Shown piece by piece: positions 38,811 to 54,998 of a stretch of 64,000 bases of DNA. Position 1 is the first letter of the stretch; every line of letters starts with the position of its first letter. The notes beneath the pieces are model-generated. The model made no database searches. It was not told the origin of the DNA and was given only the letters and a program-made list of their open reading frames with translations. The translations under genes were made by a program, and so were the position numbers. Source of the stretch: Mycoplasma sp. (GTDB lineage Bacteria > Bacillota_I > Bacilli_A > Mycoplasmatales > Metamycoplasmataceae); contig JAMPIX010000001.1 in NCBI GenBank assembly GCA_024721275.1, positions 186,001 through 250,000 on the forward strand. Direction: 5' to 3'.

Positions 38811-40414
38811 ATGAGCTATTATATTAGAAATGAGAATGCACTTAATTTTATTGAAGAGTTAAAAGAAAATAACATTTTAGTAGATGCAATAATTACTGAC
38901 CCTCCCTACAATATTTCAAGAGCTAATAATTTTAAAACAATAAATAGAGCAGGAATTGATTTTGGATCTTGAGATTATGATTTTGATCAAGTAACTTGAA
39001 TTAAAAAATCTAGTCCGATTGTTAGAACTGGTGGATCAATATTAATTTTTAATGATTGAAGAAATTTAGGAGAAATTGCCAACGCTCTTGAAGAGTCCGG
39101 TTATTTTGTTAAAGATGTTTTACGTTGAGTAAAAAATAATCCAATGCCAAGAAATACAAGTAGAAGATATGTAACTGATTTTGAATTTGCTATTTGAGCA
39201 GTAAAGGGAAAAGGAAAATGAACATTTAATTTTGATAAGTCTAAACAATTACCTTATTTAAGACCAGAATTTAAATATTCACTTGTTGCAAAAAGTGCAA
39301 ATAAAATTCATCCAACACAAAAGTCTCATGACTTATTATTAGATATTATTAAAATACATACAAATAAGAACGATACAATATTTGATCCCTTTATGGGAAG
39401 TGGTTCAACAGGTATTGCAGCATTAGAACTTAAAAGAAGTTTTATTGGTACAGAAATAAATAAAAAGTACTTTTCTAAAGTTCAAAAAAGATTATATATT
39501 TCTCATGCATCAAATATGAAGAATAAATATGTTGTAAGATCTCCTTTATATTATCTAGGAGATAAATATAAATTACTTTCACAAATTTTTACTTACTTTC
39601 CAGAAAAGATAAATACATTTTGAGATTTATTTGGCGGTGGCGGAACTTTAGCTGCAAATATCCAAGCTCAGAGTTATGTATATAACGATATATATATATA
39701 TATAGGCTTTTCAAGCTGTTTAAGAATAGTACATTCGGCTTCATTGACAAAGAAATTAATAAACTAACAAAAAAATACAATTTAACCAATCCAAATTTAA
39801 ATGATAGAAAAAATATAAATATTAATTCTCATAATAAACCTGGATACAACCAATTAAAGAAAGATTTTAATTCATTAAAAGATAAATCAACAAAAGAAGC
39901 AGAAATAATGCTTTTAGTATTAGTTATATATGGTTTTAATAGTCAAATTAGATTCAACTCAAAAAAAGAATTTAATATTCCTGTTGGTAAACAAGATTTT
40001 AATATTCAAAGAAGAGAAATTATGAAATCTTTTATGAGAAAAATCAAATCTAAAAAGATAGATATTTATAATAAAAATTACAAAGACTTTTTAAACAAAA
40101 TTAAAAAAGATGATTTTGTTTATTTAGATCCACCATACTTAATAACTGATGCAACATACAATGCTACTTGAAAACAAAAAGACGATTTAGAATTAATGGA
40201 ATTTCTAGATGAATTAAATTCTAGAGGAATATCATGAGCCATGAGTAATGTATTAAGTGCAAAAGGTATTGAAAATATTAAACTTAAAAATTGATCAAAA
40301 CAATACAATGTAATACCTCTAAAACATGATTATAAAAACTATCAAAGAAATTTTGATTACATTACTGAAGAAGTACTTATTCACAACATGATAATTGATA
40401 AGGATGGTAAATAA
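38811..40414 (+). pseudogene. Two-domain adenine DNA methyltransferase, frame broken at an (AT)n tract
   Basis: The N-terminal half is a beta-class N6-adenine methyltransferase: D-P-P-Y-N-I-S near residue 28 comes before the SAM motif F-D-P-F-M-G-S-G-S-T near 190. After P-L-Y-Y-L-G-D-K the second half is an alpha-class, Dam-like enzyme: D-L-F-G-G-G-G-T first, Y-L-D-P-P-Y later. Two domains fit a type II system with an asymmetric site. Between them at 39688-39704 an (AT)8A tract shifts the frame; as given, the first frame stops at 39766 after nonsense residues. Two bases fewer in the tract would join both halves. It may be phase-variable and now OFF for domain 2, so domain 1 may still be made. 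Confidence 0.85.
39688..39704 (+). repeat. (AT)8A dinucleotide tract in methyltransferase gene
   Basis: Seventeen bases of alternating A and T lie right after the codons for Y-N-D in the second domain. Frame 1 of the gene ends shortly after it; the conserved L-F-K-L-F-K-N segment continues in the frame reached by losing one AT unit. Confidence 0.9.
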
Positions 40415-40415
40415 A

Positions 40416-41963
40416 ATGCTTTTTGAAAAATTTAATAAATTTGGTGATACGACGTTTAGAACTAAAAATCAGTTATTAGCATATTCGAATTTTCTTCAAT
40501 TAATCATTGATAAAAATAATAATGAATTTTCAGCTAAAGAATTTGATAAACACTTTAAAGCCTGAGTAAAAAAAGAGAAACTTTATTCTTATAAAGAAGA
40601 TGATGAAAGAAATAGATTTTCATTTGTTAAAAAAGTTTTTTCTTATTCTGGTATTCTTGAAAATAGTAAAATCATTAAAGTAAAAAAAGAAGAAATAGAA
40701 ACTTTTAAAATCCTTAGAAAAGAAAAATATTTTTTTAGAATGTTAAATAATTATTCAAATAATAATTATAAAAATAATCATTCTAAACCTTTTAGAAAAG
40801 CTATGGAATTTCTATATAAAAATAGATTTAATAAAAATCTAAATGTAATTGATTTCGCTATTTCATTTGTTGTTTTTGATGGAAACGAAACATTCGAAAA
40901 ATTATATGAAATGGGAAATAATGAAATAATAATTAAAATTGTAAAAAATAAATATAAAAAACTTTATGATAATGATTTAGAAAATTTAGAGATAAAAAAT
41001 ATAGATGAATTTAAAAAAACCTTTGATTATAAAAAAATGTCTGATGAAGAAGGTAAACCATCATATAATGCATATGAATTAATGTTAATATTCAGCGATT
41101 TTTATAATTATGATTGAAATAATTTACCAATTAGACTTGAAAAAGCACTTAAGAAAATATTTAAAAATAATACTAAACTAAAAATTAAAAATATTAGAGA
41201 AGAAATAAAAAAATATAGTAAATCTGAATGTGTTGAATTACTTTTTATAGAAAAAGTAAGAGCATTGATAAAGAAAGATTATTACGATTTATTTAGCAGA
41301 TGATTATATGGTTTGACATTAACAAACACTTCTGGAGTAAAAGCGCAATTTAATGATTTAACTAAAATGAAATTAGATGAAAAAGAAGATTACTATTATA
41401 TGCCTCAGGAAAATGTGACAACATATAGATATCCATTCTCAAGAGAAGAGATAAAAGGGTTTATACAAAATATAAGTCAAAATAATTATGATGACAAGTT
41501 AAATAAAAAATTATCTAAAATTAAAATATTAAATTCTACTTGAGCTGAATATGTTGTAAATATGGGATTTTCATATTTATTAGAAATAAAACCTCACGAT
41601 TTTACAAAGTTCTCTAGAACACAAGTAACAAAAGATTTACTTCCTGTTTTTACAGCCCCTGGAAGAGGTGCAGATTTTCAATATTTTGGATCAGAAAAAA
41701 ATGCTGTTATTGTTGAGACAACAATTCATAAAACAACAACTGAAATCTTAAGTCATGAAACAGCAAGAGTAAAAAAACATTTTAGAGATTTTATAAGAGG
41801 TGTAAATTCAAACAAAAGTGAATTAAATTTTGTGAGTTATTTAAATGACAATGAAGAAAAAATATGATTCAAGAGAGCTGTTCTTGATTGAATAGATGAT
41901 GTACATAAACCTAATGCAAAAATAAATGTTTCAACTTTTGAAGAAATTTCAAATTTGCTTTAA
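40416..41963 (+). CDS. Putative type IIS restriction endonuclease (AlwI-like)
   Basis: A 515-residue protein starting one base after the methyltransferase stop. The last 150 residues hold a nuclease-like core: W-A-E-Y-V-V-N-M-G-F, then P-G-R-G-A-D-F-Q-Y-F and V-I-V-E-T-T-I. This D-x(n)-E-x-T arrangement resembles the AlwI family of PD-(D/E)XK-type enzymes that cut outside asymmetric sites. The N-terminal two thirds is helical and basic and may recognise DNA. Pairing with a dual methyltransferase supports the call. The recognition sequence cannot be read from this. The frame is intact with TGA as Trp. Confidence 0.62.
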
Positions 41964-42016: not shown

Positions 42017-45000
42017 ATGAACTTAAATGAATCTGAATATGAAAAAAGAATAATATCTTTTGCTGTTGATAATGGCTTTAAATATATTCCTTTTGATGAA
42101 CTTTTTTCATTAAGAAATGGTGATTTTAGTGAAGTAATAATAGAATCTCATTTTAAAGATTTTATATTGGATAATAACGATTTAACAAATGACATGTTGA
42201 ATGATGTAATTAGAAAAATAAAAGATTTAAAAGGAAGTGAATTAATTAATGCAAACATGCAATTCCAAAAATATTTAACAGAAGGAATAAAGGTTTGAGA
42301 TAAAAGAAAAGAAAGAAATGTAACAATTTTTTTATTTAAAAAGACGGGAAATAATTTTGTTGTAACAAATCAGTTTAAAATGAAAACAACTCACGTTGAA
42401 TATGACAATCAAATACCAGATGTTGTTCTTTATATGAATGGATTACCAATATCAGTTATTGAACTAAAAAGTCCTATAAATGAAGAAGACAATATTTTAG
42501 AAAAAGCATATCAACAAATAGAAAATTATAAGATTTATTTAAAGGATTTATTTATATACAATGTTTTTAATATTATTTCAGATGGAAATATTTCAAAGGT
42601 TGGTTCATTAACTTCTTCATATGCAAGATATCAAAATTGAAGAGGAGAAAAATTTGATTCTCCTGAAAGTTATTTATTCAAAGATTTATTAAAAGAAGAA
42701 GTGCTTATAGAAGTAATAACTAATTATTCATTTTATGAAGAAAGTGAAAAAATGACAAAAATAATTTCTGGATATCATCAATTTTACGGAGTAAAAAAAG
42801 CATTAATTAGTGTTGATAAAGCAATGCGCGGCAATAAAAAAGGTGGTATTTTTTGACATACTCAAGGTTCAGGTAAATCTTTTTCTATGATGTTCTTTGT
42901 TAAAAACTTTTCAAAGCTTCACTTAGGAACAACTTTTGTTGTTATAACTGATAGAAACAATTTAGATAATCAACTTTATAAAACTTTTAAAAAGAATTCT
43001 AATTTTATCGGACAAAAGTTAAAACAAATTGATTCTATAGAAACGCTAAGAAATGAATTAAAAAATATAAAGCAAGATGGAGTTTATTTTACCACTATTC
43101 AAAAATTTAATGATACAGTAGGAGAACTTATAAATAGAGATGATGTAATTATTATTTCAGATGAAGCACATCGGTCACATAATAATATAAATGGAAAATA
43201 TGTAGTAAATCTTAAGGAACAAAAAAGTAAACTGAAATATGGTAGTGCTAAAAGATTAAGAGATGCATTTCCAAAAGCTACTTTTATCGGATTTACTGGT
43301 ACACCCATAGAATCAATAGATAAATCTACAACAGCTATTTTTGGTGATATTATTACTGAATATAAAATGCCTGATGCTGAAAGAGATGGAGTTATTGTTC
43401 CAATAAATTATGAATCAAGAAAAGCTGTTTTAAAATTTGATTCTAGAGCTCTTTCATTATTAGATGAAATTGATGCAAACATAACTGATGAATTAAATTC
43501 TAGTTCTAATTTACCAACAGAAATGAAGAAAAAATTCAATAAGAGTTGAAAAAAATTAAAAAACTTTATTGGTGATCCGGATAGAATTAAGGGGGTTGTA
43601 AAAGATTTAATTCAACACTATAATTCTAGAAAAGATCTTGTTGCAGGTAAAGCTATGATAGTTGCACTAGATAGACATATTGCATTATCTTACTATAAAG
43701 AAATAATAAAACAAAAACCAGAATGAAAAAATATAGTGAAACTTATTGTTACTACAAATGCCCAAAATGATGATTCTGAATTAATTGAAGCTACCGGAAG
43801 TTCAAGCGACAGAAAAAAATTTGCAATTGAATTTAAAAAAGCTTCATCAAAATTTAAAATTGCAATTGTTGTAGATATGTGATTAACTGGCTTTGATGTA
43901 CCATCTCTTGATACATTATATTTAGATAAACCTATAAAAATGCATAATTTGATGCAAGCAATTGCTAGAACAAATAGAGTTTATAGTAATAAAAAAGAAA
44001 ATGTAGAAAAAGAAGCAGGATTAGTTGTTGATTATATCGGTATTTGAAGTAAATTAGGTGAAGCATTAGCTTTTTATTCTGGTGAAAAAAGTAGTGATAA
44101 TATTATTTCGCTACATGATTTAAATTCATTGAAAGAAGATTATTTAAAAAATATAAAAATAATTCAAAATAATTATGAAATTGATAATCTTAAAATTGAT
44201 TATAATCTAGCATCAACTAATGGTGAGTACGCTTTCAATGCTATTGATATAATAAGCGAAAATATTATTAAACAAAGAATACAAAGTGATTTTGTTAATG
44301 TCACTAAAACAGTTAGCAAAATGCTGAAAAAAATAATTTCTGTATTATCTCAATCAGAAATAATGGAATTTCAACTTTTGATTTCAGCAAGAATAAGATT
44401 AATAAAACTTGAAATGGATAATATTGATTTTGTTAATAAAAATAAAAAAGTGTTAGAAAAAATACAAGATACAATTAAATATGAAAAGACAGTTGTTGTA
44501 AACGAAGTCAATAATACACAAATTAGTCTTTCATCAATATTAAAATTTATTCAAAAAAAAGAAGATAAAAATATCGAGTTATCAGCAAAAGAAAAAGCAT
44601 CTGCTATAAGACTTTTAATAAAAGAAGTAAAAAAAATTAATTTGATAAAAGCAAGTAAATTAAGCAAAGATCTTAAAAGGCTTTTAGACAAATATGATTC
44701 ATCACACATTACACGTGAAGAACTTGAAGCTGGATTTAAATTACTTTCTGATAAAAGTAATGATATTCTAACGAAACAAGAACATGATGAGTTTACAAAT
44801 GAGGAAAGAGGTTTTTATGACATATTAAAAGATCCTATTAAACAAACAAACTTCGATAAAGATAAAATTGAATTAATTTTTAGAGATCTATTAAAAGTCA
44901 TAAATGATGATAATCTTGTAAATAAACAATGAGCCTTCAGCAATACGATGAGAAAAAAAACAAGAGGTCATTTAAAAATAATGTTGAGAAAATATAATTA

Positions 45001-45073
45001 TCCACCAAAAGAAGCTGATTATGCTAGAGAAAAAATAATAGATCAAATTGTAATTATGAAAGGATATAAATAA
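42017..45073 (+). CDS. hsdR: Type I restriction enzyme R subunit
   Basis: A 1018-residue translocating restriction subunit. The N-terminal nuclease shows P-D-V-V-L-Y near residue 133 and I-E-L-K near 150 (PD-ExK). The SF2 motor follows: Walker A H-T-Q-G-S-G-K-S near 278, S-D-E-A-H near 380, G-F-T-G-T-P near 425, and W-L-T-G-F-D-V-P and A-I-A-R-T-N-R further on. The C-terminal 300 residues are helical and bind the HsdM-HsdS core. Length is normal and the frame is intact with TGA as Trp. A TAAAAT box ends six bases before the ATG, so the operon may be leaderless. hsdM1 starts two bases after the stop. Confidence 0.95.
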
Positions 45074-45075
45074 AT

Positions 45076-46602
45076 ATGAAAAAAATGAATGATGAATTTG
45101 AAAGAAAATTATGAAAAGCAGCAGATGCTTTAAGAGGCAACCAATCAGCAGAAGAATATATGCATGTAGTGATTGGAATTATGTTTTTAAAACATTTTTC
45201 TGATAGCAATGATTTTTTACTAAATAAATATAAAGAAAAAAATGGAATAGAAATTACAGGAGATGATTTACTTGATAAAGATATTTTATCACTAGCAAAT
45301 ATATCTTTTGTTGTTCCCGAAAAAGCAAAATGAAATTATATTTCAAAATTTGCAACGCAGAAAAATATAGGCGAAATAATTGATAATGCTTTTTCAGAAA
45401 TTGAAAGAACTAATAATGAATTAATTGGATTGTTTGAAAAAAATTATAATCGAGAGGAATTAGATCAGGGAAGATTAGGAATGGTAGTCTCTGAATTTTC
45501 GAATTTGAATTTTAGTGAATTTGGTGAAGATATAATTGGAAGAACTTATGAATATTTTTTAGGAGAATTTTTTAAAAAGCAAGGTCAAAAAGGTGGTGAA
45601 TTTTATACACCATCTTCCATCGTTGAATTAATGGTAAATATAGTTGATCCTAAAGAAGGGAAAGTCTACGATCCTGCTGCAGGAACTGGCGGAATGCTTG
45701 TTCAAGCAAAAAAACATATAATGGCAAAAGGAGTAGATCCATCAAAATTAATTGCTTATGGACAAGAATTTCAAAATAAAACTTGAAAACTTTCTAGAAT
45801 AAATTTATTATTACATGGATTTCATGTGGATAATGTTAAATTAGGACATAAATCTGCAGATACATTCACTGAGGATTTACATCATAATGAAAGATTTGAA
45901 TATATTTTAGCAAATCCACCATTCAATGTAAAAAAATGAAACGCAGATAGATTATTGAATGAAAATGATAATAGATGAGAATGAGGTTATCCTCCAAAAG
46001 GAAATGCAAATTATGCTTGAATTTCTCATATGGTTCATAAGCTTACAAACAATGGTAGAGCAGCCACTGTTTTAGCTAATGGTTCGTTGTCATCTTCAAA
46101 AAAAGAAGAACTAACTATTAGAAAGAATTTAATTAAAGATAATTTAGTGGATGCAATAATTGCATTGCCTAGCAATCTATTTTATACAGTTACTATACCT
46201 GCTTGTATTTGAGTGTTTAACAAAAATAAAAAAACAGATAAAGTTCTTATGTTGGATGCATCAAATTTAGAAGGTAACATGATCTCTAAAAAACTTAGAG
46301 AGTTAACAAAAAATGATATTACAAAATTATCTAACATTTATAATGATTTTCAAGAGAATAAAAATATTGATGAAATAGGTTTAGCTAAAAGTGTGAGTTT
46401 AAGTGAACTAGAAGAAAATGAATACTCATTTGTACCAGGAAGATATGTTGGTTTTGTTGAAGAAGAAATAGATAGAGATAAAATAAAAAAAGAAATTTTT
46501 GAATCTTCATTAGAATTAGAAAAGTTATTAGTGGAATTAAATGAAATTACACCAAAAGTCAATGAATCAATTAAAAAGGTCTTAGAATTACAAAATGAAT
46601 AA
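45076..46602 (+). CDS. hsdM: Type I modification subunit HsdM, copy 1 (intact motifs)
   Basis: A 508-residue N6-adenine methyltransferase subunit. It has the N-terminal HsdM helical domain (R-G-N-Q-S-A-E-E-Y-M-H-V-V-I-G), G-G-E-F-Y-T-P near residue 176, SAM motif D-P-A-A-G-T-G-G-M near 196 and catalytic A-N-P-P-F-N near 279. The C-terminal helix should contact HsdS. Together with HsdS it modifies and recognises DNA; with HsdR it restricts. It overlaps hsdM2 by 8 bases. Long stretches match hsdM2 almost exactly at DNA level. Confidence 0.95.
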
Positions 46603-48109
46603 TAAAAGTAAAAATTTTTTCGAAACTTGATGAAGGGAAATAAAAAAATTTAGAGGAAGTATATCTGAAGAAGAATACATGCATATAGTAATTGGCATTA
46701 TGTTTTTAAAACATTTATCTGATAATAACATTTTTTTATTAAATAAATATAAAGAAAAAAATGGAATAGAAATTACAGGAGATGATTTACTTGATAAAGA
46801 CATTTTATCACTAGCAAATATATCTTTTGTTGTTCCCAAAAAAGCAAAGTGAAATTATATTTCAAAATTTGCAACGCAGAAAAATATAGGCGAAATAGTT
46901 GATAATGCTTTTTCAGAAATTGAGAGAACTAATAATGAATTAATTGGTTTGTTTGAAAAAAATTATAATCATGAAAAATTAGATCAAAATAAATTAGGAA
47001 TGGTAATCTCTAAATTTTCAAATTTGAATTTTAGTGAATTCGGTGAAGATATAATTGGAAGAACTTATGAATATTTTTTAGGAGAATTTTTTAAAGAACA
47101 AGGACAAACAGGTGGCAAATTTTATACACCATCTTCTATTGTTGAATTAATGATAAATATAGTTAATCCTAAAGAGGGAAAAGCTTATGATCCTGCTGCA
47201 GGAACTGGAGGAATGCTTGTTCAAGCAAGAAAATACATTATAGAAAAAGGGATTAATCCATCCAAACTAATCATTTACGGACAAGAAATAGAAAGAAAAA
47301 TGTGAAAATTAGCAAAAATTAATTTTTTAATTAATGGTTTTCATATCGATAACATAAAACTGGGTGGAAAACCTTCAGATACATTTGTTGATGATCTTCA
47401 TAAAAATAATAAATTTGATTATATTTTTTGTGATCCTGTTTTTAATGATGATTGAAATGCAGATAAAGTATTGAATGAAAATGATAATAGATGAGAATGA
47501 GGCTATCCTCCGAAAGGAAATGCAAATTATGCTTGAATTTCTCATATGGTTCATAAACTTACAAACAATGGTAAAGCAGCCACTGTTTTAGCTAATGGTT
47601 CGTTGTCATCTTCAAAAAAAGAAGAACTGACAATTAGAAAAAATTTGATTAAAGATAATTTAGTGGATGCAATAATTGCATTGCCTAGCAATCTATTTTA
47701 TACTGGCGTTATACCTGGATGCATCTGAGTGTTTAATAAAAATAAAAAAACAGATAAAATTCTTATGTTAGATGCATCAAATTTAGAAGGTAACATGATC
47801 TCTAAAAAACTTAGAGAGTTAACAAAAAATGATATTACAAAATTATCTAACATTTATAATGATTTCCAAGAGAATAAAAATATTGATGAAATAGGTTTAG
47901 CTAAAAGTGTAAGTTTAAATGAACTAGAAGAAAATGAATACTCATTTGTGCCAGGAAGATATGTTGGCTTTGTTGAAGAAGTAGTAGATAAAGATAAAAT
48001 AAAAGAAGAACTAAAAGAAATTAGTGTTGAATTAAAAAAATTGATTGAAGAATTTGAAGAATCAATTCCAGATGTTTATGATTCTATTGATAAAATTTTG
48101 AAAGATTAA
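46595..48109 (+). CDS. hsdM: Second HsdM paralogue with altered catalytic motif
   Basis: A 504-residue paralogue of the preceding HsdM, full length and in frame. The SAM motif D-P-A-A-G-T-G-G-M is kept, but the catalytic A-N-P-P-F-N at about residues 279-284 reads C-D-P-V-F-N, and G-G-E-F-Y-T-P reads G-G-K-F-Y-T-P. Loss of the second Pro and the Asn makes methylation activity doubtful. The family forms M2S complexes with two HsdM, so this copy might act as an inactive or regulatory partner. The ATG overlaps the end of hsdM1 (8 bases), so it is translated from the same mRNA. It is convergent with hsdS1, four bases away. Confidence 0.92.
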
Positions 48110-48658
48110 AATTTTATTTAATTAACAATTTTATAACTTTATTTTTAAGCTTTTCTAGAAACTCTAGTTTTGTTTTAGAAATGCTTTGTAATTTATAAAA
48201 AATGGATAATTCATTTTCTAGTTTTGAATCATACATTTTTATACTTTTAATATCATTTAATTTTATAAATTTTATTACTGCTCCATTTGATCTCTTTCTA
48301 AGTTTTTCTATTCCTTTATTAACTGAATAAAATGTTGTAAAAAAATTATTTTTTTCTTTGAGTGCATATACTCGTTGATACAAATCAAAATCTCCATCAA
48401 TTCATCATGTGTAAATTTCACCATTACCAGAAAGCAATATATATTTTCCAGAGAAATTTTTAGTATTTGTTCTAAGAATTTTTGAACCACAAGTGTAAAA
48501 TGGATATTTTCCATTTTTAATACTTGCATTTACATTTTTTTTACCTGTTCTTATTTCTGAAAAAATATTTTTCTCATCTGTTTCACTTAGATTTATTTTA
48601 TTTAGAATTTTATCTATTGTATTACTAATTTTATTTAAACTAGTCATCAATTTTTCAA

Positions 48659-48784
48659 TTGGTTCGATTATGTCTATAATTTTTTTAATATCATCTTTTG
48701 CAGAATTGAATGTAGATATATCAATTAGATTTAAATGCTTAATTAAAAAATCCTCTTTTGGTTCGATTATGTCTATAATTTTTT
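48659..48784 (-). repeat. 27-base direct repeat within hsdS1
   Basis: Positions 48659-48685 and 48758-48784 are identical and code for K-I-I-D-I-I-E-P in the same frame, 99 bases apart. Deletion between them would remove exactly 33 residues. Confidence 0.8.
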
Positions 48785-48794
48785 GTTGTTCTTC
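48765..48794 (-). repeat. Central inverted repeat, hsdS1 copy
   Basis: Thirty bases perfectly complementary in orientation to 50398-50427. They code for E-E-Q-Q-K-I-I-D-I-I between the two recognition domains of HsdS. Confidence 0.85.
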
Positions 48795-49139
48795 CAAAGA
48801 AGGTAAATCTATTTTTATTTTTTTTCAATCTGTTTTTTTGTTCCTGGTCTAGTTGATCCGGTTATTATTTTCTCTCAATTATTCTTATTTAATAAAAAAT
48901 AATATAAATACTTTTTATAACAAACGTTCTTATTAATATCACCAACCAAAAAAGCTGTATCTATATTTCAAACAGGAAAGTTATATCAAAAAATTTTCAT
49001 TGTGCCTTTTCTTGGCAGTGAAAATGTCTCTTTATTATATCTATATTCATTAGTATATGAAAATATTCCACCAGCCCCAATTACTGGTATATTACCGGAT
49101 TTTTCAAGAGATTTTTTACCATCGATTATTTCAGCTATA

Positions 49140-49170
49140 TCACCAAGTTTATATATTGCCATAATCAAAC
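49140..49170 (-). repeat. Left 31-bp inverted repeat of the hsdS switch
   Basis: Covers 8 bases before and the first 23 bases of hsdS1 on the minus strand. It matches 49943-49973 on the plus strand at every position. Confidence 0.9.
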
Positions 49171-49171
49171 A

Positions 49172-49199
49172 AAAAAACACTTTATTAAAAGTGCTTTTT
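49172..49199 (-). terminator. Terminator of the recombinase gene
   Basis: Hairpin with CACTT/AAGTG core and A/T-rich flanks, reading into a T run on the minus strand. It includes the recombinase stop and lies between the recombinase and hsdS1, so it should block read-through into hsdS1. Confidence 0.6.
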
Positions 49200-49889
49200 A
49201 TATATGTTTAGATTTTCTTTTTTTGATAATTGCAAATACCGATATGTTGTTTCAATTTTTACATGACCCAATTGCATAGAAACACTTTTAACAGTTGCGC
49301 CATTTAGGATCATATGAGTTGCATGACTTCTTCTTAATGAATGCGGTGTATATTTTTCACCTAATACTTCTTTAATTCACAGTCTTAATGTTTTAGTTGT
49401 CACATTGTATTTACCTAGTATTTGTTTAGTTGTTTCAAAATTATGAAATATTTCTCGCTTTTTATTTCCTTTTCCTAAAATTTTCAATGTATCAACATTA
49501 ACATCATGAATAGTTTCCAACTCTGATGCTCTTATTCCAGTTTCAAAAAGAAATCTAATAATTAAACACTTCAATTCTAGTTTTTTAGTTTTGTTATACA
49601 ATTCTTTTTTTGTAATTATTTCCCTATAAACCTGATCATATTTTGGTAATTTTAATTGTTTTAATAAAATTCACCTTTTATTACCAGATCATTTTAAAAA
49701 TGATAATATGACATTATATTTTGTGTGTGTTGTAGAAACAGCTTTTGAATACAAAATATATTTTCTAATAGATGTTATTTTATATAGATCTAATGTTTTA
49801 TTGCTTAGTATAGTTTTATATGATCTTATTGTGTTTTTTGAATAATTATTTTTTTTCAAAAATCTAATATATTTATTTATATCTTCCAT
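49185..49889 (-). CDS. Tyrosine recombinase (Xer/invertase type)
   Basis: A 234-residue recombinase, shorter than XerC/XerD of about 300 residues. The N-terminal SAM-like DNA-binding domain has Y-S-K-N-T-I-R-S-Y near residue 16. The catalytic set is complete: Arg near 120 (G-I-R-A-S-E-L), Lys near 139 (G-K-G-N-K-K-R), H-S-L-R-R at 183-187, L-G-H ending at 209, and nucleophile Tyr near 218 (T-T-Y-R-Y). It lies between two inverted hsdS genes, inside the predicted invertible segment, the usual position for an enzyme that shuffles type I specificity genes. GGAGGT RBS on the minus strand. Confidence 0.9.
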
Positions 49890-49918
49890 TTTACCTCCAA
49901 TATAAAGTAAAATATAAA

Positions 49919-49943
49919 TATGATTAAATTATTAATTTGGAGG
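49919..49943 (+). promoter_or_regulatory. Promoter-like box and RBS driving hsdS2
   Basis: TATGAT at 49919-49924 and GGAGG at 49939-49943, seven bases before the hsdS2 ATG. The RBS lies at the inner edge of the right inverted repeat; the left repeat has no equivalent. Confidence 0.6.
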
Positions 49944-49973
49944 TTTGATTATGGCAATATATAAACTTGGTGA
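49943..49973 (+). repeat. Right 31-bp inverted repeat of the hsdS switch
   Basis: Perfect inverted match to 49140-49170; it spans the hsdS2 start codon and the codons for M-A-I-Y-K-L-G. Confidence 0.9.
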
Positions 49974-51024
49974 AATTTGTGATTATGTTGAAGGATACGT
50001 TAATCCTGCAATAAATAATTCTAAATATTTTAATGGAAATGCAATAAATTGAATAAGAGTAAAAGATTTAAAACATGGTCAAATAATAAATGAAACTGAA
50101 TTAACTCTTTCTGAAGAAGGTTTTAATTTAAGAAAAAATGATAAACAAATTTTTTTAAAAAACTCAATAGTTTGGTCAAAATCTGGAACTGTTGGAAATG
50201 TTGGTATATTAGGAAAAAATGCTTGTGCTAATAGAGGTATTTTAAATATAATACCAAAAGATAAAATTAAAAAAAAGTATCTCTATTATTTTTTGTATAA
50301 AAATAAAAATTCTTTTATTAGAAAAGCTACAGGTGCTGTTTTATTACATTTTTATGGACCGCAATTAATGAATGAGAAAATAAACTTACCATCCTTAGAA
50401 GAACAACAAAAAATTATAGACATAATCAAACCAATAGAGGAGCAAATAAAAATATGTCAAAACATAATTGATAAATCTAAGTCATTATTAAAAAATAATT
50501 ATCATTTTAATGAAAAAACTGAAAAACAATCATTGGGTGATTACATTTCTTTTCAAAAAACAGATTATCAAAATCAAAGTAAATATTTTGCAACAAATGC
50601 AATAGGAGAATTTAATATTGATTTCACTAAAATAATAGATGTTTCTAAAAATGTTCCATCAAGAGCGAAAGTTTCACCAAATGAAAAAACATTAATTTTT
50701 TCAAAATTACAAAATGAAAATAAATATTTCTATTTTGTAAATAAACCAAATGAAGTTTTTTCTACTGGAATGTTTTGTGTAAATTCAAAATATATTGACC
50801 ATGTTATTGGTTTTTTTCAAACAAAAAGCTGAATGAAACAAAAAGACATTTTTTCTAACGGAACAACGATGAGAGGATTAAATAACTCTGCTATAAAACA
50901 AATAAAAATTAAGAGTCCAATTTTAGAAGGAGATAAAATATCTTCTCTTATTTCTAAAATTAGTTCAAAAATCGGAATACTAGAAAATTTAAAATTAAAA
51001 ATAATAAATTTATTAGTTAAATAA
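49951..51024 (+). CDS. hsdS: Type I specificity subunit HsdS, copy 2 (intact, with RBS)
   Basis: A 357-residue HsdS that selects the DNA target of the type I enzyme. The first recognition domain runs from M-A-I-Y-K-L-G-E-I to about residue 145, the central spacer contains L-P-S-L-E-E-Q-Q-K-I-I-D-I-I near 146-159, and the second domain begins with L-G-D-Y-I near 197. It ends in a helix rich in Ile and Lys. The gene is open throughout with TGA as Trp and has GGAGG before its ATG, so it is the expressed copy here. It stands outside the hsdRMM transcript and needs its own promoter. Confidence 0.92.
50398..50427 (+). repeat. Central inverted repeat, hsdS2 copy
   Basis: Thirty bases perfectly complementary in orientation to 48765-48794, located between the two recognition domains of hsdS2. 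Confidence 0.85.
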
Positions 51025-53134: not shown

Positions 53135-54998
53135 ATGTTTCAGTTAAAAAATATAATAAATACAGACGTAAAAGATCAAAATCAAATATTTGATGAAATA
53201 ACATCTTTGGCTTTAAAAAATAACTTAATAAGTAAAGATGGAAAAGAAACATTAAAATCATTAGATGGAAAACCAACTGATTTAGTAGTATCGATAATTG
53301 TTCCGGAGGATGCTAGAAATATGCATCTAGATATATTAGCTAAGATAGCTGGAAAGTTTTCAAGTGAAGAAAATCTAGAAAAATTTAAAAAATTAACTCA
53401 TGAAGAACAATTGAAATTTTTAAATGATAGTAAAAATGATGAAATAGTTTCTGAGGTTAAAAGTGGCGACATAAGTGTTATTGCTGTTACATCTTGTCCA
53501 ACTGGAGTTGCCCATATATGGCGGCAGATTCATTAATTAAATATGCTTCAGAAAATAATATTAAATTAAAAGTTGAAAGACAAGCTGCACAATGAACTAT
53601 AAATGAATTAAATCAAGATGATATTAAGCAAACTGATTATGTAATAATAGCAACGGAAGACCAATAGATGGAAAAGAAAGATTTGAAAACAAAAAAGTTC
53701 TTGAAGTTGGAGTTGCAAAAGTTATAAAAGATCCTAAAAAATTATTTGATGATGTAATTATTGCTCCTGTCTTAAAGTGAAATGGAACATCTACTGAAAA
53801 AAGTAAGAAAAAAATGACTGGTCCATTAGCAGCACTTATGAATGGTGTTTCATACATGATACCATTTGTTGTTGTTGGCGGATTATTAATAGCTTTATCT
53901 CTTGGTATTGCAGGAAAACAAATAAATGGAAAATTACAAATTCCAGATCATACTTTTTGAAGCGCTGTAAATGATATTGGTGTTGTCGGTTTTGAATTAA
54001 TGATTCCTATTTTAGGCGGATTCATAGCATCAACCATAGCTGGTAGAGCCGCTGTTGCACCTGCTATGGTTCTTTCATTCTTGATAGGAAATCAAGATGG
54101 ACAATTATTCAATTGATCAAGATTCGAATTTGAAAATTTTGTCATTAATGGTAGTGGTCATCCAGCTAATGCAGGTTTCTTTGGATCAATTGCTGTTGGA
54201 TTTGCAGTAGGTTATGGTGTTAAATTATGATTAGACACAATTAGTTTAAAAATTCCTAAACAATTAAAACCAATTGAACCAATTTTAGTAATTCCTATAT
54301 TATTTACTTTTGTTGGTTGATTATTTTTTGCTTACTTTGGTTATGTTCCTTTATATTACATATCAGAAGGTTTAAATATAGGTATAACAAGTCTTGTTGA
54401 TGATAATTTATTCTTTATAGCTGGAATAGTTTTAGGAGCAATGGTTGGTTTTGATATGGGTGGACCAATTAATAAAATTGCATTCTTGTTAGGATCAGCA
54501 TTTATAGAGCAAGGAAAACCAGAAGTCATGGGAGCTGTAGCAGCAGCCATAGATATTCCTCCTTTAGGTTATGGACTAGGTGTATTAATAGGTAAATATG
54601 TATTTAGAAGTAAAGTATTTGATAAAGAAGATGTTTCAACTTCTTATACATCAATAATTATGTCATTTGTTGGAATTACAGAAGGAGCAATACCATTTGC
54701 TATTAAATATCCAAAAAGTGTAATTATTTCAAATATGGTTGGATCAGCAATCGATGCTGGATTAGTTGCGCTATTCCAAATTACTGATAGTGCTGCACAT
54801 GGAGGACCAATAGTTTGAATTCTTGGAGCGATTGGAAAAGATGGAGTTAGAAATTATTTATGAGGATTATTCTATTTAGTTGCAATAATAGCCGGAGCAC
54901 TTACAACTGCTACACTAATGATAATATTAGAAAGTATTTATAACAAAAAGAAAAAGAAAGATCATAGAGATATTAAAAAGACAGAAACAATAAAATAG
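53135..54998 (+). pseudogene. fruA: Fructose-type PTS enzyme IIABC, decaying
   Basis: The gene would encode a membrane permease that phosphorylates fructose during uptake. Three lesions are visible. First, the IIA domain goes from N-L-I-S-K-D-G-K directly to S-L-D-G-K-P-T-D, so the usual G-I-A-I-P-H active-site His region (about 40 residues) is missing. Second, the IIB domain reads C-P-T-G-V-A-H and then shifts frame near 53513 because about four bases of the T-Y-M-A-A codons are lost. Third, one base is missing near 53657 at the T-G-R-P-I-D-G-K segment. After that the IIC domain is open to 54998, with G-G-P-I-N-K. TATAAT lies six bases before the ATG. Confidence 0.85.

Follow-up and report, generated by a model that had tools for sequence, protein, structure and literature searches.

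The window (the whole stretch of 64,000 nucleotides that was analyzed) derives from a mollicute whose 613-kb assembly is divided into 2 contigs. Genes of this organism appear broken unless UGA is read as tryptophan, and genetic code table 4 is therefore required to read them correctly. Within the window, one locus carries hsdR, hsdM1 and hsdM2 on the forward strand, followed by hsdS1 and a recombinase gene (REC) on the reverse strand and by hsdS2 on the forward strand (Table 1). As in phase-variable type I restriction-modification (R-M) invertons, a single locus combines hsdR and hsdM with two or more hsdS genes. The second methyltransferase gene is a near-duplicate of the first, with the motif DPVF in place of NPPF. 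Among the loci compared, all other HsdM proteins in which the motif is covered have NPPF, and the hsdM2 product is probably enzymatically inactive.

Table 1. Features of the hsd locus, in window coordinates (strand "." = none assigned)
Feature	Position	Strand	Basis or remark
hsdR, type I restriction subunit	42017-45073	+	Pfam HSDR_N, SWI2_SNF2; TIGR00348 above cut-off
hsdM1, methyltransferase, NPPF motif intact	45076-46602	+	PF02384, E=8e-98; motif
hsdM2, near-duplicate of hsdM1, DPVF replacing NPPF	46595-48109	+	PF02384; alignment, motif comparison
hsdS1, long-linker specificity gene, frameshifted	48114-49165	-	PF01420 on N part; frames
Middle site B in hsdS1, 24 bp (ATTAT-AGAC-ATAAT)	48662-48685	-	Site alignment
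Middle site A in hsdS1, 24 bp	48761-48784	-	Site alignment
T8 on + strand (A8 in hsdS1), frame lost here	48818-48825	.	Frame analysis
Left arm of start inverted repeat	49140-49170	-	24-bp dyad site 49147-49170 across hsdS1 ATG
Invertible core, 772 bp	49171-49942	.	Repeat coordinates; in-silico inversion
Intrinsic terminator, overlapping REC stop codon	49172-49199	-	Folding; position conserved
REC, tyrosine recombinase gene	49185-49889	-	PF00589, E=2e-15; alignment
Shine-Dalgarno sequence of REC	49894-49898	-	Sequence
-10-like box TAAAAT toward hsdS2 (probable promoter)	49908-49913	+	Begins 43 nt upstream of ATG; conservation
GGAGG, Shine-Dalgarno sequence of hsdS2	49939-49943	+	7 nt upstream of hsdS2 ATG
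Right arm of start inverted repeat	49943-49973	+	24-bp dyad site 49943-49966 across hsdS2 ATG
hsdS2, short-linker specificity gene, intact, ON position	49951-51024	+	PF01420, E=2e-24
Middle site in hsdS2, 24 bp	50408-50431	+	Site alignment

A preliminary description of this DNA had placed a tyrosine recombinase between two divergent hsdS genes, and the Pfam match of REC bears this out. In an alignment with relatives, the residues R, K, H, R, H and Y of REC fall in invariant columns, which we take to be those of the catalytic residues. The locus, like an inverton, hence encodes its own site-specific recombinase with the catalytic residues present.

The frame of hsdS1 is lost at a run of eight A residues (A8 tract), close to where the first recognition domain ends, so that a frame of 115 residues remains; the second half of the gene is open. 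Because of this frameshift, a flip would now yield a truncated HsdS. The frameshift may reflect slippage, decay or sequencing error; the A8 tract and the presence of other frameshifts in the window, in a nearby methyltransferase gene and in a phosphotransferase system (PTS) gene, make slippage or sequencing error possible explanations.

The starts of the two hsdS genes carry, as the preliminary description had it, a perfect inverted repeat, whose arms are identical over 31 nt. With as many as 3 mismatches allowed, the arms have no further copies in the window or in the 613-kb genome, and shuffled sequences contained 0 copies of the repeat. A chance repeat was considered as an explanation and rejected. 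The arms, an inverted repeat common to both hsdS genes as is typical of invertons, enclose a core of exactly the 772 bp that had been proposed as invertible. When this core was inverted in silico, the two leaders traded places and nothing else changed. Both start codons and both reading frames were kept, and GGAGG and the -10-like box were taken from hsdS2 to hsdS1. The two earlier predictions, that a flip would transfer the ribosome-binding site (RBS) and promoter signals and that it would leave the coding sequences unaltered, are thus reproduced.

Signals for expression are distributed unequally between the two edges of the core. GGAGG, the Shine-Dalgarno (SD) sequence of hsdS2, occurs beside this gene only, and none is found on the hsdS1 side, in agreement with what had been noted. 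A scan for sigma-70 consensus promoters returned a number of sites not above that in shuffled AT-rich sequence, and conservation was therefore used as the basis for recognizing a promoter. Most relatives have a similar -10-like box at the equivalent position, and the promoter in the core is probably this short AT-rich box. At the opposite edge, next to hsdS1, folding confirms the terminator that had been proposed there: a hairpin (-12.8 kcal/mol, z=-3.9) with a 12-pair stem and a U-run extends to the left arm. This hairpin was not listed by a G+C-based terminator scan, because its stem is AT-rich. At present, hsdS1 has no SD and is located behind this terminator. Translation in mollicutes does not always depend on an SD, and so the missing SD is no proof that hsdS1 is silent. 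As in invertible-promoter switches of the Hin or fim kind, the signals are contained in the invertible DNA and directed toward one of its sides.

A second inverted repeat, located inside the hsdS genes, had been overlooked. In an alignment, the start sites have a 10+4+10-bp layout, with the sequence GTTTGATTAT-GGCA-ATATATAAAC in the window and typically GTTNNNTAAT-GGCT-ATTTATAAAC in other loci, and their ATG bridges the left half-site and the center. Sites of the same form with a different 4-bp center (middle sites) are placed between the recognition domains; they read AAAAAATTAT-AGAC-ATAATCRAAC in the window and AAAAAATAAT-TGAC-ATTATTGAAC in other loci. One complication is that the middle sites encode I-I-D-I-I, a conserved protein motif that by itself tends toward such a dyad.

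The pattern of variation among sites bears on this question. Within a locus, the center 4-mer is equal in both genes, and it differs among loci. This holds for the start sites in 15/15 loci (0 of 200,000 shuffles) and for the middle sites in 13/13 (1 of 200,000 shuffles). The inner ends of the half-sites are TAT/ATA at 10/10 half-sites in the window, compared with AAT/ATT at 120/122 in the other loci. This change is common to start and middle sites of the window, and in the middle sites it alters Ile codons synonymously, such that protein selection does not explain it. The 10-mer ATAATCRAAC occurs 5 times in the 64-kb window, always within the switch, where 0.77 occurrences are expected; a count of five was attained in 1 of 100 shuffles. 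Protein-level conservation alone was rejected as an explanation of the sites, given 8 noncoding bases in the start repeat and the synonymous Ile changes in the middle sites. Matched centers, window-specific half-sites and the confinement of ATAATCRAAC to the switch together argue for one DNA-binding protein acting on both classes of site, and the same recombinase probably serves both. Tyrosine recombinases require identical crossover regions. Because the start and middle centers differ in every case, recombination of a start site with a middle site is not expected.

Inversion at the middle sites was also performed in silico. It joined the first domain of hsdS2, which keeps its promoter and SD, to the second domain of hsdS1, with a 375-residue HsdS as the product via site A and a 342-residue HsdS via site B. 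With the frameshift as it stands today, the product of either combination that includes the first domain of hsdS1 is 115 residues long. The earlier view of a switch limited to choosing an hsdS gene is consequently too narrow, in that the locus also has REC-compatible middle sites, at which inversion would exchange domains as well as flip the core. Similarly, the statement that one or the other HsdS is made fits the two-gene anatomy, but hsdS1 is frameshifted and the middle sites add domain exchange.

Comparison of domains among loci is informative about past events. First and second recognition domains do not have their nearest relatives in the same gene. In hsdS2, for instance, the first domain matches L046R at 61%, and the second matches L045L and L047L at 42-46%. 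This distribution shows that recognition domains were re-paired in the past, which may have happened through REC sites or by another route. In at least 12/15 loci (11 found by a pattern search, and the window), one hsdS gene has an extra module of 33-38 residues, bounded by a second middle motif and positioned in the linker between the recognition domains. The module is apparently in both genes of locus L044 and in neither gene of L043. Our guess is that it changes the spacing that is recognized.

The comparisons above use loci that were found by searching relatives for REC and examining the neighborhoods of the best matches. In total, 15 loci (window included) have a recombinase gene between two divergent hsdS genes. 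They were picked on recombinase similarity and the presence of two hsdS genes, not on expression signals. The design is not peculiar to this genome; it recurs at 14 other mollicute loci, and at least 14 related species have it. In all 15 loci, an inverted repeat of 11-33 bp lies on both hsdS starts, and the core measures 772-925 bp. Most of these repeats exceed the maximum found in 150 shuffles (15), and the three shortest (11, 12 and 14) do not.

The signals seen in the window are placed consistently relative to REC. On the REC-5' side, the SD is the stronger one in 15/15 loci, with a mean duplex energy of -10.3 vs +0.4 kcal/mol. The more stable hairpin is on the REC-3' side in 13/15 (-11.6 vs -5.4 kcal/mol), and two distant loci (L097 and L104) have no clear terminator. 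A TAAAAT/TATAAT box is upstream of the gene on the REC-5' side in 14/15 loci and of the gene on the 3' side in 2/15. The core is oriented toward hsdRM in 10 species and away from it in 5, with one genome per species. On a tree of REC sequences, this corresponds to at least 3 changes of orientation, all differences being between species. The occurrence of both orientations, with signals that track REC, is what flipping of the whole core, expression signals included, would lead one to expect. Signal placement and orientation across the 15 loci are the main support for the switch idea.

In the same tree, 12 of the 15 recombinases belong to one well-supported clade of 17, within which the REC of the window is the first branch. 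A class-wide search gave a single weak relative outside the order, and the close REC family therefore seems, with the present sampling, to be restricted to this order. Close REC relatives without hsdS were also observed. Two of them (L040 and L048; one in M. testudineum, the other a second copy in G143) are near genes for lipoproteins or surface proteins, and one (L111) is on an IMG/VR contig, found when viral contigs were searched. These relatives may drive other phase-variable loci.

We consider it highly likely that the locus serves a type I R-M system as an invertible expression switch operated by a recombinase. The recurrence of the same design in at least 14 related species makes it very probable that this is a functional epigenetic switch rather than a chance feature of a single genome. 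Sites, signals, frames and their conservation are read directly from the sequences; from them we infer that inversion occurs, that REC catalyzes it, and that the hsdS gene without signals is silent. In the mechanism we propose, a dyad site with half-site GTTTGATTAT around GGCA crosses the start codon of each divergent hsdS gene, and REC, encoded between these genes, would invert the 772-bp core. On the REC-5' side of the core, a divergent promoter region and the SD would drive the adjoining hsdS gene. On the REC-3' side, the terminator abuts the other hsdS gene, which would stay without promoter or SD. Every flip would then shift the expression signals to the opposite gene.

REC is further proposed to act on the middle sites between the recognition domains, which have the same half-site and another center. 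Recombination would be confined to sites of one class, start with start and middle with middle. A middle inversion would carry the first recognition domain with its promoter onto the alternative second domain, so that start and middle inversions together could generate as many as four HsdS proteins, of which a single one would be made at any time. The doubled middle site of hsdS1 might allow gain or loss of a 33-residue linker. Because hsdS1 is frameshifted in the present assembly, truncated HsdS would result in two of the four states. A broader form of this proposal seems to us to have about an even chance of being right. It holds that one REC performs two incompatible inversions (hsdS choice and domain pairing) separated solely by the 4-bp center, that the 33-residue linker, which could alter half-site spacing, adds a third axis, and that sites within start and linker codons have been coevolving with REC across the order.

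Other explanations of the locus were considered. It could be an ordinary hsdS shufflon that operates via the middle sites, in which case the start repeat would only reflect conservation of the sequence that encodes the N terminus (MAIYKLG). Related systems are known to work by domain shuffling (PMC4783014, PMC7394358), recognition domains are shuffled among the loci, and the middle inverted repeat is long and exact in many of them (up to 60 bp). This explanation does not account for the 8 noncoding bases of the start repeat or for its locus-specific center 4-mer, matched in 15/15 loci. Also, the half-site change specific to the window is common to start and middle sites, and the positions of SD and hairpin track the core exactly. 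We therefore regard a shufflon of this kind as improbable. Slightly less probable still is a frozen locus, in which one hsdS gene is always expressed, the other decays as a pseudogene, and occasional gene conversion homogenizes the repeats. The frameshift in hsdS1 fits such a history, as does a broken hsdS gene in the relative L043. However, both hsdS genes are open in 13/15 loci, core orientation varies between species, and the catalytic residues of REC are invariant; the frameshift itself, in an A8 tract and accompanied by others in the window, could be slippage or sequencing error.

A mobile element, consisting of a recombinase and attachment sites inserted between two hsdS genes, would explain why close REC relatives are also found where hsdS is absent, beside genes for lipoproteins or surface proteins and on a viral-database contig. 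Yet the core carries no other cargo, the hsdS start codons are within the sites, the SD is part of the core, and the arrangement is maintained in divergent species. Insertion of a mobile element was rejected on the basis of cargo, start codons and conservation, and we assign it only a very slight probability.

Our preferred interpretation, a switch that flips expression signals, can be compared with known systems. In the Hin switch, a serine recombinase controls one target operon, the site has no coding part, and the recombinase gene and promoter are within the invertible segment. The locus in the window likewise has a recombinase gene and a probable promoter inside invertible DNA; unlike Hin, it involves a tyrosine recombinase, two alternative genes and a site that includes coding sequence. 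The Hin-type switch of Salmonella flagella is mentioned in PMC11868660.

In Listeria monocytogenes ST8, the locus LMR479A_0528-0532 is a phase-variable type I R-M system, of which four variants were found among strains (PMC4783014), and systems in S. suis are similar (PMC7394358). These loci have in common with ours hsdR, hsdM, two opposed hsdS genes, two pairs of repeats and a tyrosine recombinase (PMC4783014, PMC7394358). In Listeria, the 5'-end repeats bound the longer segment, 3.3 kb vs 2.3 kb (PMC4783014), and these lengths suggest that the promoter stays in place outside while the genes are inverted. In the window, by contrast, the start repeats are the inner pair, 772 bp apart, and the signals would flip while the genes stay fixed. 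Instead of 5' repeats around both genes with a promoter outside, as in the Listeria and S. suis type, we find that the 772 bp hold REC, the SD and the -10-like box. The second hsdS gene of P. gingivalis and of T. forsythia was described as having neither an ATG start codon nor a promoter (PMC7394358), whereas both hsdS genes here retain a start codon.

Single tyrosine recombinases that use several distinct hsdS repeats are known. At the cod (SpnIII) locus of S. pneumoniae, PsrA works at the hsdS repeats IR1, IR2 and IR3, and an IR1-like sequence is needed in each (PMC7096588, PMC4948785). REC would resemble PsrA in this respect; the cod locus differs in that it is expressed from the hsdRMS promoter, which is outside the inverting region, and there is no flipping expression cassette. 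Among mollicutes, hsd inversion by HvsR is established for M. pulmonis (cited in PMC2824730, PMC2268961 and PMC4948785), where HvsR is encoded elsewhere in the genome (PMC2824730). That system is similar in that type I hsdS genes are inverted site-specifically by a tyrosine recombinase with more than one kind of site, and different in that REC is encoded inside the hsd locus.

Mollicute hsd loci with a recombinase gene have been reported as well. In M. hominis, psrA is explicitly between the hsdS genes (PMC11096450), and in M. agalactiae, int is within the hsd locus, where rearrangement was looked for and none was found (PMC9465063, PMC2824730). In the parts of these papers available to us, domain shuffling is the sole proposal for both species (PMC11096450, PMC9465063, PMC2824730), and, unlike in our analysis, the passages describe no promoter, RBS, terminator or site structure. 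Because both are mollicute hsd loci with a recombinase, lying in M. hominis expressly between hsdS genes, they are probably members of the same design. What is known already is therefore the pairing of hsdS genes around a recombinase (M. hominis, Listeria) and an hsd locus with a recombinase (M. agalactiae). In our literature search, which covered papers outside subscription, no report of an hsdS system with a flipping RBS or promoter was encountered.

If the proposed mechanism is correct, the locus represents a compact mollicute R-M switch that moves expression signals between stationary genes. Its anatomy would allow one HsdS at a time, and the recombinase would flip along with its target. 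A vague suggestion in the literature, that an hsd-locus recombinase "may" shuffle hsdS, would be replaced by named sites and predicted products that can be tested by PCR in culturable species. The same half-site with different centers would also be a natural case of one tyrosine recombinase on orthogonal sites, an arrangement useful to builders of DNA switches.

Two loci found in the comparison have other layouts. In L044 (8088-13556), the number of hsdS genes is four. Two of them diverge and are accompanied by the recombinase, and the other two have middle sites, whereas no start sites were recognizable in them. In L092 (9021-13807), a REC relative is beside a convergent hsdS pair, one member of which is right after hsdM, with the same start sites. 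This Listeria-like layout with a mollicute site is perhaps an evolutionary link between the two designs.

Some observations concern other genes of the window. A PTS sugar-transporter gene (53135-54998) has apparent frameshifts away from homopolymers and appears to be a pseudogene or an assembly error. Adjoining the hsd locus, a gene for a two-domain DNA methyltransferase (38811-40414) is disrupted at a (TA)n dinucleotide tract (approximately 39690-39704); it could be phase-variable through slippage, or the disruption could be a sequencing error. Beside it is a gene for a 522-residue protein (40395-41963) that matches no Pfam, NCBIfam or PADLOC family and that, judged by its position, may be a restriction enzyme partnering the methyltransferase.
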